Part shown: positions 32,415-35,657 of the stretch, in pieces
Numbering within the stretch: position 1 is the stretch's first letter
How the letters are laid out: each line of letters starts with the position of its first letter
From: Halostella pelagica
GTDB taxonomy: Archaea; Halobacteriota; Halobacteria; Halobacteriales; Natronoarchaeaceae
Reading direction: 5' to 3'
Assembly: GCA_005954745.1 (NCBI GenBank)
Contig: CP040678.1
Span: 1-64,000 of the forward strand
DNA length: 64,000 nucleotides
The notes under the pieces: generated by a model
Told to the model about the DNA's origin: nothing
Seen by the model: the letters and a program-made list of their open reading frames with translations, nothing else
Databases searched by the model: none
Position numbers and translations under genes: made by a program

Positions 32415-32469
32415 CCTATAGCAGAAATATACAGCCAAAATAAAATAAATATCATACTAACAGTAAACA

Positions 32470-32493
32470 TTATATTAAAAGAGAATTAATTCT
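32470..32493 (+). promoter_or_regulatory. Promoter and palindromic operator candidate of the halocin-like gene
   Basis: A TATA-like TATATTAAAA (32471-32480) lies about 28 bp before the GTG at 32503, fitting a leaderless transcript. Between it and the start is the perfect palindrome AGAATTAATTCT (32482-32493), where a repressor would cover the transcription start. Confidence 0.55.
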
Positions 32494-32502
32494 TAACTAT
32501 AT

Positions 32503-33537
32503 GTGGCAGAAGATAAACTGGGGTTGGATGAATATAGAGAAAAACTGAACGAAGAACTCGGGGACTGTGGCGGTTGTACGGAGGCTTGGAGCGCCACGAA
32601 TGAATTGCGAGAACAAGTAAAAACAGATGCTGACGAAGGATCCAAGCCCATAAAGAGACGCTCTTTGATGCAATCAGTTGGGATTTCTGCTGGCGCTCTC
32701 ACACTAGGTCCATCTCTGGCGAGTGCGAAAGAGGGAGATGTGGATGGGCCGGAAAAGGCTAGTCACGATCAAATTGAAAAAGCCCTCAACACTGAGGAAG
32801 TACAGACTCTGTTTAGTGAGTTGAATATCGATGGTAAAAAGCGTCTGCCTCTTCAACGAGGGAAAGCAAAATACATCAATATAGACATTCCCTTAGAGTC
32901 AGATGAGGACATAACTGCCGAACTGACAACCTTGCCGACGCCCGCAGGTGAAGCCTATTATAGCGAGGCAAGTAACGGATCCTCGGAAGCAAGTTTCCTG
33001 TTCGGTGCCACATTTGAAAACCAGCACGACATATCCTTACCTCCAGGACAAAAGAAAAAACTGCCTGATCGTTATCAAGACCTTCCGGATTCAGGTGCAA
33101 AGCTTACTTACGCAGATGGTGAATTTACAATGGCTCGGTTCCCGACTGAGTCGGAAAAGAAAGAAATCATCGATCTTATCGGGGTATCTGGGGATGAAAT
33201 AAGAACATCAGTCAATTCTCAGGATGGAGCATTCCGGGTTACTACTACAAAGGGTGTGCTCTATGAGGTCGACACTGGTTTTGAGAATCCGGCTTACAGT
33301 GAAGTACCAACTGAGAAATTCGAAGATGCCAATGCTGAACAATTATTGACTGCCCAAGGATGTCTCACTGACTGTGCTACTTGCGTGGCAGCACTGGGCG
33401 GAGGTTGCTTCTTCACTTGTGGTCTAGCCTGTCTGTCAGTTGTAACTCTGGCCGGTATGGTGCCGTGTGCAGCGTGTGCCATTACGTTTTGTGGCACCGC
33501 CCCGCTGATCTGTGGGAAATGTTCGAAGTGTAGTTAG
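32503..33537 (+). CDS. Halocin C8-like Cys-rich peptide precursor with internal Tat signal
   Basis: 344 residues, GTG start 28 bp after a TATA-like box. Residues 1-50 are a charged extension with a CGGC pair (Cys22, Cys25). A Tat signal follows: IKRRSLMQSVGISAGALTLG (Arg52, Arg53), hydrophobic to about 72, ending LASAK. Residues 76-282 are soluble and mixed. The last 58 residues are hydrophobic with 12 Cys (287-343), including CLTDCATC, CFFTCGLAC and CGKCSKC. Halocin C8 is likewise the Cys-rich, hydrophobic C-terminus of a Tat precursor whose N-terminal part gives immunity. By analogy the C-terminal peptide would be released and toxic, and residues 76-282 protective. Codon use is AT-rich, unlike neighbours, suggesting transfer. 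Confidence 0.7.
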   Translation: MAEDKLGLDEYREKLNEELGDCGGCTEAWSATNELREQVKTDADEGSKPIKRRSLMQSVGISAGALTLGPSLASAKEGDVDGPEKASHDQIEKALNTEEVQTLFSELNIDGKKRLPLQRGKAKYINIDIPLESDEDITAELTTLPTPAGEAYYSEASNGSSEASFLFGATFENQHDISLPPGQKKKLPDRYQDLPDSGAKLTYADGEFTMARFPTESEKKEIIDLIGVSGDEIRTSVNSQDGAFRVTTTKGVLYEVDTGFENPAYSEVPTEKFEDANAEQLLTAQGCLTDCATCVAALGGGCFFTCGLACLSVVTLAGMVPCAACAITFCGTAPLICGKCSKCS

Positions 33538-33550
33538 GACAGTACCAATA

Positions 33551-33571
33551 ACATATTAAATACGCCGTATT
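33551..33571 (+). promoter_or_regulatory. Promoter and inverted repeat of the 74-residue membrane-protein gene
   Basis: A TATA-like ATATTAAATA lies about 30 bp before the ATG at 33587, pointing to an own, leaderless promoter. It overlaps the inverted repeat AATACG-C-CGTATT (33559-33571). Confidence 0.5.
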
Positions 33572-33586
33572 GCTTAGTAGAATTGC

Positions 33587-33811
33587 ATGAACCGATTCCA
33601 GCCTGGGGAAATTGAAGCTAGAGACAACCCGATATTATCAAGTGCTATTTTTGGTGCGACCGCATCTATTTTTGCTGCCTTATCCTTCCTGACTATTCTA
33701 CCTATTTTTCAGATCTACATTGGAACATGGAGGATTTTAATTTTCTCAGTGGCCCTCGGGGTTATCACCTTTATACTCACATCCATAACACTCTACGGAA
33801 TGTCAGAGTGA
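33587..33811 (+). CDS. 74-residue two-helix membrane protein next to the halocin-like gene
   Basis: Starts MNRFQPGEIEARDNPILSSA; helix 1 about 17-40 (SAIFGATASIFAALSFLTIL), helix 2 about 46-70 (RILIFSVALGVITFILTSIT). No family recognised. It lies 49 bp after the precursor gene in the same direction, has the same AT-rich codon use, and its own promoter. Small membrane proteins next to bacteriocin genes are often immunity or export aids, so an immunity role is a reasonable guess, unproved. Confidence 0.6.
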   Translation: MNRFQPGEIEARDNPILSSAIFGATASIFAALSFLTILPIFQIYIGTWRILIFSVALGVITFILTSITLYGMSE

Positions 33812-33993
33812 ATTGGAGTCTTCAAATTGGTAGCGAAACAACATATAGACTTTCTTGATGTTGGGGATGCTTCCTGCTGAGTTTGCATAGATACTGAACG
33901 GTCGTTTCAGATCCATTACTGTAGAAAGAGAACTGTAGTAGAGACTACTGCAAAGGAAGGGACTTCGTTACTACGAGGCGGGGCAGAAATCCG

Positions 33994-34119
33994 TTAGTCG
34001 CCGCTCTCGCTTCCGTTTTTCTGGAGTGTCTCCATCTTGACCCGAACGTTCCCGTCATCACCGACTGTGAACGCATCGGATTCCTCGACATCAAAATCGA
34101 GGTCGTCTGGGTCAGTCAT
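33994..34119 (-). CDS. 41-residue acidic protein overlapping the next gene
   Basis: Starts MTDPDDLDFDVEESDAFTVG and ends QKNGSESGD; soluble and acidic. Its ATG (34117-34119) lies inside the end of the 87-residue gene, whose TGA is at 34112-34114 (ATGACTGA, eight shared bases). The overlap and shared AT-rich codon use suggest a translationally coupled pair. No family recognised. Confidence 0.5.
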   Translation of the reverse strand: MTDPDDLDFDVEESDAFTVGDDGNVRVKMETLQKNGSESGD

Positions 34120-34375
34120 TATCAGGGTGTTCTCGCTCAAGGGCTAAATTCTCTTCCCGAAGGATGTATTTCCCGATCAGGAGGGCCGCACCGGATATCC
34201 TGAGAGTTACAATTCCGCTAATGTAGATATGGTTTGGGAGGATTACTAATACTGCCCCGCCTAATAAGTAGAGGACACCGATTACGAGACTGGTGAGGCA
34301 TCGCTCGAACTGCTTTGAATTCGCGATTACGACTTTCCGATTGTCTCTGATCGCATCGCTGTACCCCTGTAGCAT
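34112..34375 (-). CDS. 87-residue membrane protein, first gene of a coupled pair
   Basis: Starts MLQGYSDAIRDNRKVVIANS; a basic, polar N-terminus followed by two helices (about 31-47 and 53-70) and a charged C-terminus (EENLALEREHPDND). It is convergent with the halocin-like unit and shares its base composition. The pair with the 41-residue protein could be a second immunity or regulatory element of the island; the sequence alone does not say. No family recognised. Confidence 0.55.
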   Translation of the reverse strand: MLQGYSDAIRDNRKVVIANSKQFERCLTSLVIGVLYLLGGAVLVILPNHIYISGIVTLRISGAALLIGKYILREENLALEREHPDND

Positions 34376-34439
34376 TGTATCTTGATAGAATTCGTCTGTG
34401 GAGTCATCTACTGGTGGATTTTGAATAAGCGGCCGTGGT

Positions 34440-35240
34440 GAATCGCCAGACGGAGCTTGATTTCACTGATTCACGGCCTGCTTGATGTTGTAAACTGCAC
34501 ACATCAAGACGAGTTCTCGAAATTCGCCGTACCAGGTTCGCGCACGCACGGCGTCGCCGAGCGTGCGCTTGATCGTCGAGAAGACCGTCTCACACATCGC
34601 TCGTTGACGGTAGCGAGGCCCATCGCCGCGCGTTATGCGCGTGACCGATGGGGTGAGACTCACGTTGTTTGATCAGTGGTCTTACGCCCTCTTCCCGCAG
34701 TTTCTCGCGTAATTCCATCCAGTCGTAGCCTTTGTCGGCGGCGAGGCTGGCGAGGTCGCCCGCGTTGCGGTGGGCGACCTGCCAGCCGAGTTGGGTGTCG
34801 TGGCGTTTCTTCGTCGTACAGTGAACGTCCAGGACCGCTTGCGTTTCTGTATCGACGAGAGCTGTCGCTTTGAGCGTCTGGACGCGATAATTCGTCCGAC
34901 GGCAGTAATGCTTGCTGGCGTTTTCACGGTCGAAGAACGTCGCGTCGATGGCAGCGTGACCGCTCGGGTCGTGCAACTGCGCCGACAGGCGCAGAAGCAA
35001 TCGCCAGAGTGCGGTCTTGATCCTGTCAAACCACTTTACTAGCGTCGAGTGATGCAGGAGATCGGCCGCGTCAAGGCCGATCTCTCCGAGTATTTGTGGC
35101 ATCTCGCTCAGCAGATCCAACGCTTCTCGGTAGGACTTCTCCAGGTAAACCCGCAGACAGTGCAGTGGTACGGCAGCGTACTCGGCGAAGCCGCCACCCC
35201 CTTCGGGACGGCACCTTCGCCTCGGCCACCGACAGCATTT
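34440..35240 (-). mobile_element. Decayed IS5-family (ISH) insertion sequence
   Basis: The DNA holds a broken IS5-type transposase read right to left and is GC-rich again, unlike the island to its left. Clear terminal inverted repeats and target duplication could not be made out, so limits are approximate. The right edge touches the stop codon of the GNAT gene at 35241. Confidence 0.65.
34463..35220 (-). pseudogene. IS5-family transposase, frameshifted and N-terminally truncated
   Basis: The reading begins without a start codon near 35200 as GGFAEYAAVPLHCLRVYLEK, then DLLSEMPQILGEIGLDAADL, and reaches the catalytic region AIDATFFDRENASKHYCRR (DDE first Asp) and LAADKGYDWMELREKLREEG (second Asp). 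Near 34630 the frame shifts by one base: HAHNAR continues in the next frame as GDGPRYRQRAMCETVFSTIK (third acidic residue in CETVFS) to the end YGEFRELVLMCAVYNIKQAV. Both a missing start and a frameshift make it inactive. Confidence 0.8.
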
Positions 35241-35657
35241 TCAGCTAATCGTCCCGCGAAGGCGCTCCTCGCCCTCACCGGTCGGCTCTATCTCGAATCC
35301 CAGCGACTCGTAGAACGGGCGCACGCCGGGATCGAAGTCGGCGGTGAGGCGGTCGGCGCGTTCGGCCGCGGCCTCGACGAGCGCGGTCCCTATCCCCTGT
35401 CCGCGCCGTGAGCGGCGGACGGCGACTGCCTCGACGTGCGCGCCCCTATCCCGCGGGTCGAGGACGAGCGCGCCGAGGACGGTGTCGTCAGCGACGGCTA
35501 CCAGCGCGTCTCCGCGGTCGATCGCGCCCGCAACGTCGCCCGGTTCGAGCATCGCGGCGTCGAGAACGCGGCGGACCGCGACGCGCTCGGCCGGCCGAGC
35601 CTCGCGGACGGCGACGGCGTCGGTCGCGCGTGAGCGCCCGGACTCGGACCCCGTCAT
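35241..35657 (-). CDS. GNAT N-acetyltransferase upstream of the IS remnant
   Basis: 138 residues. The acetyl-CoA loop is RRSRRGQGIGTALVEAAAER, and GVRPFYESLGFE is the GNAT C-terminal signature. It starts inside the end of the samp2 gene (ATGA overlap, 35654-35657), so the two are co-translated. The stop codon is followed at once by IS-derived DNA; the domain is complete, so the insertion spared it. The substrate is unknown. Confidence 0.82.
   Translation of the reverse strand: MTGSESGRSRATDAVAVREARPAERVAVRRVLDAAMLEPGDVAGAIDRGDALVAVADDTVLGALVLDPRDRGAHVEAVAVRRSRRGQGIGTALVEAAAERADRLTADFDPGVRPFYESLGFEIEPTGEGEERLRGTIS

Follow-up and report, generated by a model that had tools for sequence, protein, structure and literature searches.

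How much of the AT-rich island within the first 64,000 nucleotides of contig CP040678.1 of Halostella pelagica (the window, read on the forward strand) belongs to an antimicrobial system, and what kind of system is it? Most haloarchaea are thought to produce halocin-type agents, and to our knowledge the halocins known by sequence are halocin C8 and a few others. The original prediction saw in the island a transferred bacteriocin locus with immunity, made up of a halocin C8-like precursor and three small proteins. Our analysis retains the transferred, cysteine-rich, halocin-like precursor and one small membrane protein, and removes the two remaining small proteins from the system. We give a probability of about 0.7 to the reading that the precursor and its neighbour, a candidate immunity protein, form a minimal halocin cassette gained by transfer (unit 32503-33811), with the antimicrobial activity of the core being what we infer from the evidence below.

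The island is an insertion, since the genes on its two sides lie next to each other in all four congeneric genomes (L268 and L265-L267), where a phosphoglucomutase (PGM) gene and a gene for 53 amino acids (aa) directly adjoin an acetyltransferase gene. Flank alignment found 4/4 of these genomes without the segment 32418-35249 at the syntenic site, and in L268 window position 32417 is joined directly to 35251. The GC fraction falls to 0.457 over 32418-34440 and to 0.592 in the part occupied by an insertion sequence (IS) remnant, from 0.683 and 0.698 on the two sides, in keeping with the sharp drop in composition first noticed. The limits first given to the island, 32415-34440, were too narrow, the true inserted segment being larger and taking in the IS remnant. 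Its gene order is the precursor and a 74-aa gene on the plus strand, two minus-strand open reading frames (ORFs) of 41 and 87 aa, and the IS remnant (Table 1). A viral or phage origin found no match in the viral-contig or phage collections searched.

The precursor has the parts expected of a 344-residue protein of the twin-arginine translocation (Tat) type whose last 58 residues hold 12 Cys: the ORF, the twin arginine (RR) followed by a hydrophobic stretch, the ASA motif and the Cys themselves (residues 287, 291, 294, 302, 306, 310, 322, 325, 330, 337, 340 and 343) were all found, in a core of 58-59 residues. Its own Tat signal lies below detection by the NCBIfam model TIGR01409, which does match the signals of relatives. 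The GTG start is at 32503, approximately 30 nt 3' of a TATA-like element, and the transcript is probably leaderless. Palindromes do lie over both plus-strand promoters as had been described, AGAATTAATTCT at 32482-32493 and AATACGCCGTATT at 33559-33571, but their excess in the island is modest (3 against 0.97 expected in shuffles); the two sequences differ, and therefore a shared operator for both promoters was rejected. In 34/73 precursors an [AST]Q dipeptide stands among the 20 residues that precede the first Cys of the core, compared with 8.0 expected from middle domains, making TAQ-GC a candidate site near which the window precursor may be cleaved.

No model for the precursor family exists in Pfam or NCBIfam. 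A first search found relatives in 33/392 haloarchaeal genomes, and a profile from alignment A1 (13 full-length members) found a family member at E < 1e-15 in 41/392, with many of the weaker matches covering the Tat region only; the family is thus present in roughly a tenth of haloarchaeal genomes and missed by current models. Both the middle domain and the core are conserved in A1, and the window precursor has the traits of the family: Tat signal, middle domain, a core spacing close to 3-2-7-2-3-11-2-4-7-2-2 and Cys that pair in mirror image. Against the closest homologue, the core shows a nonsynonymous divergence (dN) of 0.23 and 71% identity, versus 0.50 and 46% for the adjoining middle-domain segment, a comparison that puts the core under the stronger constraint.

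The Cys of these cores are lost in a pattern that bears directly on what the core is. Fifty cores were aligned and reduced to 45, and among these the mirror-image pairs were lost together in 3 sequences (C1+C12), 15 (C2+C11), 4 (C4+C9), 2 (C5+C8) and 9 (C6+C7), counts inflated by the relatedness of the sequences; C3 and C10 were never lost. Of the 10,395 matchings of twelve Cys, the fully nested one comes first, with 8 discordant cells against a median of 66. Even if each loss class is treated as one event, that five independent pair losses should all fit a single nested matching is, by our estimate, a coincidence of approximately 1 in 10,000. Loss in mirror pairs together with the rank of the nested matching implies a predicted hairpin with six nested disulfides. 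Such pairing, taken with a spacing that is nearly palindromic, points to a pair of antiparallel helices with a Gly-rich turn between C6 and C7; the AlphaFold models, at low confidence, also break the helices there. These results bear on another view of the protein, in which it would be a secreted metal-binding or redox protein whose CxxC pairs hold a metal or Fe-S cluster outside the cell. The core does contain several CxxC motifs, but loss in mirror-image pairs is expected for disulfides and not for metal sites, the core is strongly hydrophobic (a mean hydropathy, GRAVY, of 1.37), and the leader, regulator and ATP-binding cassette (ABC) permease discussed below are common with halocin C8 loci; we consider this view very improbable.

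How close, then, is the unit to halocin C8? The halocin C8 precursor (ProC8; TIGR04449) has, like that of the window, a Tat signal, a middle domain and a C-terminal Cys-rich hydrophobic core of similar size, and halocin C8 loci and loci related to that of the window have in common a FilR1-type regulator and an ABC permease. The cores themselves are unlike. That of halocin C8 has 10 Cys spaced 2-7-3-7-13-7-8-8-5, and that of the window 12 spaced 3-2-7-3-3-11-2-4-6-2-2; the window core gave no match to TIGR04449 at E <= 5; and in profile-profile comparison (hhalign) with halocin C8 the precursor aligns over its Tat region and first mature helix only. Membership of the window core in halocin C8 was consequently rejected for its missing TIGR04449 match, its spacing and the failure of the cores to align, and the likeness first proposed holds for layout and not for the core: judged from sequence, the unit is like halocin C8 in layout and outside the halocin C8 family by its core. 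For comparison, the halocin C8 core of genome G007 has 76 residues, the length reported for mature halocin C8 (PMC11509114).

The connection to halocin C8 runs through three other features. Ahead of the Tat signal the precursor carries a module, DGGGC-x-E-[AT]-W-x-x-L-x-E-x-R, present in approximately 25 Tat precursors. This GGGCxExW leader also heads precursors that pass the 24-bit cut-off of NCBIfam halocin_C8_dom (TIGR04449), namely those at L023 (30.5 bits) and L201 (36.0) and a second precursor of the H. pelagica genome itself (45.6); the halocin C8 precursors of G007, G331, G153 and G248 are without the motif. Immediately upstream, 5/5 true halocin C8 genes have a regulator with HVO_A0261_N and FilR1_middle domains, as do about half of the precursors that bear the leader. 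Finally, ABC permeases of one family are encoded at each of the five halocin C8 loci, beside the second precursor of the H. pelagica genome and on plasmid phalar01 of the halophilic archaeon DL31. The DL31 cassette (Halar_0083-0088, all annotated as hypothetical except an ATPase) is the most complete of the loci: it has the leader, Tat signal, middle domain and ladder-type core of the window precursor, followed by small proteins with two and four transmembrane (TM) helices, and unlike the window it also has a divergent regulator, an ABC ATPase and an ABC permease, with a core that is without C6 and C7.

The second locus of the own genome, at approximately 2,412,460-2,413,350 of the contig (L099), was the sole match when that genome was searched with TIGR04449. 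Its precursor combines the leader with a halocin C8-type core.

The 74-aa protein fills the slot where an immunity protein, protecting the producer, would be expected. It was described beforehand as a two-helix protein with its own promoter, and this holds: the ORF encodes two predicted TM helices, starts 50 bp 3' of the precursor and has a TATA-like element approximately 30 nt upstream. We oriented 80 precursor loci and counted ORFs of 40-200 aa with at least two predicted TM helices on the same strand and no more than 170 bp downstream; the controls were 240 other large ORFs, nearly all neighbours in the same loci, with tiny-peptide regions included. Such an ORF follows 20/73 non-redundant halocin-like precursors versus 7/240 control ORFs (p = 5.6e-9), and among leader-bearing precursors the fraction is 9/14 (p = 1.9e-9). 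The 74-aa gene belongs to the ORFs so counted. We read the window gene as a halocin precursor because it has its leader in common with halocin C8-domain precursors, because the regulator and the ABC permease are found at related loci, and because of this excess of downstream multi-TM genes.

The same context could be imagined to serve a different product that borrows the export and processing layout of halocins, be it a secreted peptide acting as a signal or in the manner of a pheromone, or a surface protein with a membrane-anchoring role. Regulators adjoin many of the precursors and the cores are very hydrophobic, as such a role would allow; antagonism is a better fit to the great diversity of cores that follow a single leader, to the fast evolution of the partner membrane proteins and to a patchy distribution (41/392 genomes), and proven halocin C8 has the same context. 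We hold this alternative to be unlikely.

Several observations weigh against a halocin cassette. The window locus has neither the regulator nor the ABC genes of the fuller loci, and the leader is missing from most members of the core family. An adjacent same-strand multi-TM gene is absent from 53/73 halocin-like precursors. No homologue of the 74-aa protein was found in 60 genomes, the matches at E 0.03-1 being membrane-protein noise, and so its role is assigned from position; a neighbour protein in G069 resembles it only marginally (E 0.06). The AlphaFold2 models have a confidence score (pLDDT) of 51 for the core and 33 for the full protein, low values that are too weak for a fold search, and the PDB gave no relative above noise. 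No demonstrated activity was found for any member of the core family.

These absences lead to the question of whether the unit is alive at all or is a decaying or orphan copy, which came in together with an IS and a truncated operon, is without a regulator or a transporter of its own, and has stopped making an active product. The neighbouring 4-TM gene and the IS are both broken, the regulator and ABC genes are absent at the locus, and none of the other four species in the genus has the segment. The precursor ORF is nonetheless intact and keeps its leader, its RR, all 12 Cys of the core and a TATA-like promoter. The 74-aa gene is intact too, with its own promoter, and relative to the closest homologue the core has changed less than the segment next to it. 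Decay is for us an improbable explanation, and an intact minimal halocin cassette remains the reading we favour.

The broken 4-TM gene is one of the two minus-strand ORFs. The 87-aa ORF has a match at E <= 0.01 in 25/195 genomes (best E 8e-18) and corresponds to the C-terminal third of 4-TM proteins of about 210 aa, with similarity continuing upstream of its apparent Met. In L249, L250 and L253 a full 4-TM gene is followed by an overlapping acidic ORF of approximately 43 aa of the same type as the 41-aa ORF. Since the full-length relatives match past the Met and the same partner recurs, the pair is, as its alignments indicate, what truncation has left of the 3' end of an independent operon of two genes, outside the halocin unit. 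A role of the pair as immunity genes was rejected on the same grounds, the independent operon recurring elsewhere, and the pair drops out of the antimicrobial system in which it had been placed. The eight-base overlap (ATGACTGA) that had been described is present; the two ORFs do not converge on each other but run in tandem on the minus strand, facing the plus-strand genes. By PADLOC, the full-length 4-TM relatives are weakly similar to PycTM and to a 2TM effector.

In the working model, the precursor would be exported by Tat, and its six disulfides would form in nested order (C1-C12, C2-C11, C3-C10, C4-C9, C5-C8 and C6-C7), stapling two antiparallel helices. A protease may then cut near TAQ|GC (residues 285/286), freeing a peptide of approximately 5.7 kDa that could attack the membrane of related haloarchaea. 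The two-TM 74-aa protein would guard the producer, possibly helped by the middle domain in a role like that of HalI in halocin C8. The missing ABC permease and regulator may be supplied by the halocin C8-type locus of the own genome or be dispensable. The processing protease of halocin C8 itself is still unidentified (PMC12893001). HmHapP / HFX_0892 is likewise a secreted haloarchaeal precursor activated by proteolysis, as we propose for the window protein, but its active part is an N-terminal helical fragment and not a Cys-rich C-terminus (PMC12893001).

Besides a testable disulfide map for the family and its tie to proven halocin C8 via leader, regulator and transporter, the analysis yields a gene candidate in a known halocin-producing strain. 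Haloferax larsenii NCIM 5678 is listed as a producer of halocin HA3, of 13 kDa (PMC11509114). Its protein WP_258303480.1 belongs to the family of the window precursor (27% identity over 307 aa), with a 10-Cys core of the ladder class of 5.3 kDa and an adjacent regulator, and without the leader motif. The gene is at NZ_CP078064.1:233004-233885 (L272:4001-4882), on plasmid pHl5678-1. As the gene for HA3 it is only a lead, 13 kDa being at odds with a 5.3-kDa core.

Table 1. Features of the inserted segment (window positions) and of the second precursor locus in the same genome (positions in L099).
Feature	Location	Strand	Basis
Whole inserted segment, 2.8 kb, IS remnant included	32418..35249	.	Flank alignment
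Probable promoter of precursor: TATA-like TTATATTAAAA and palindrome AGAATTAATTCT	32467..32502	+	Sequence, palindrome scan and shuffles; putative function
Halocin-like precursor, 344 aa, GTG start	32503..33537	+	ORF, homologue and profile searches
Pre-Tat leader, residues 1-50, conserved GGCTEAW at 23-29	32503..32652	+	Leader alignment A2, order-wide search, E 3.4e-24
Tat signal with RR at residues 52-53 and ASA at 73-75, after which the cut is predicted	32653..32727	+	Sequence; RR invariant in alignment A1
Middle domain, residues 76-285, family-conserved, candidate HalI-like propeptide	32728..33357	+	Alignment A1; putative role
Candidate processing site TAQGC, residues 283-287, just 5' of first core Cys	33346..33363	+	[AST]Q enrichment
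12-Cys hydrophobic core, residues 286-344, ~5.7 kDa	33358..33534	+	Cys spacing and co-loss; six nested disulfides predicted
74-aa two-TM protein, own promoter, candidate immunity protein	33587..33811	+	Position statistics; no homologue in 60 genomes
Acidic ORF of 41 aa, partner lying downstream of truncated 4-TM gene, outside halocin unit	33994..34119	-	Same overlapping partner in L249, L250, L253
87-aa ORF, C-terminal remnant of ~210-aa 4-TM protein, outside halocin unit	34112..34375	-	Homologue alignments
IS remnant, broken DDE_Tnp_1 transposase (34590-35120 and 34463-34663)	34441..35249	-	Pfam PF01609
Own-genome second precursor	L099:3462-4350	-	Leader and halocin C8-type core
120-aa multi-TM protein after second precursor	L099:3053-3415	-	
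ABC permease after second precursor	L099:1459-3063	-	
FilR1-type regulator upstream of second precursor	L099:4542-5327	-	

The leader module is not confined to Tat precursors. Tiny haloarchaeal peptides of 35-50 aa end in HLxD(V/I)EDGxGC(T/A)E(I/V)WExLSExR, which is the leader module (hhalign probability 97.7, E 1.8e-12); one is encoded in the own genome (G000:C1:1814427-1814525, minus strand) and others at L100-L102 and L107-L118. Their neighbours vary, several resembling genes for sulfite/nitrite reductase, phosphoadenylylsulfate (PAPS) reductase or a TrmB-type regulator, and the idea that these mark a modifying enzyme was rejected, the neighbourhoods having no common enzyme. A family of zinc-ribbon-like proteins of 220-266 aa is encoded within a few kb of approximately 10 Tat-protein loci, mostly those of Cys-rich precursors, and some of its members elsewhere bear the leader module at the N-terminus (family loci L103-L105, L139, L143, L144, L172, L199, L216, L233, L234, L237 and L272). 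As a speculation that we put forward tentatively and think rather doubtful as a whole, haloarchaea may hold an extensive and so far unrecognised class of antimicrobial peptides, each a helical hairpin held by six nested disulfides, and for some of these the cytoplasmic GGGCxExW module would be a shared docking tag that controls export or keeps the precursor inactive in the cell.

One family member, in Haladaptatus halobius (L065:5962-6942), is similar along most of its length to phrog_23815 (of unknown function; E 5e-7), which hints at virus-borne relatives, none of which turned up in the phage collection. Among weak Tat matches there are Cys-rich precursors, those of true halocin C8 and others. 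At L223 and L221, Tat proteins have 20 and 18 Cys in their last 70 residues, in cores that are apparently unrelated, so that the repertoire of Tat-exported Cys-rich cores in haloarchaea appears to be wider than the ladder-core family.

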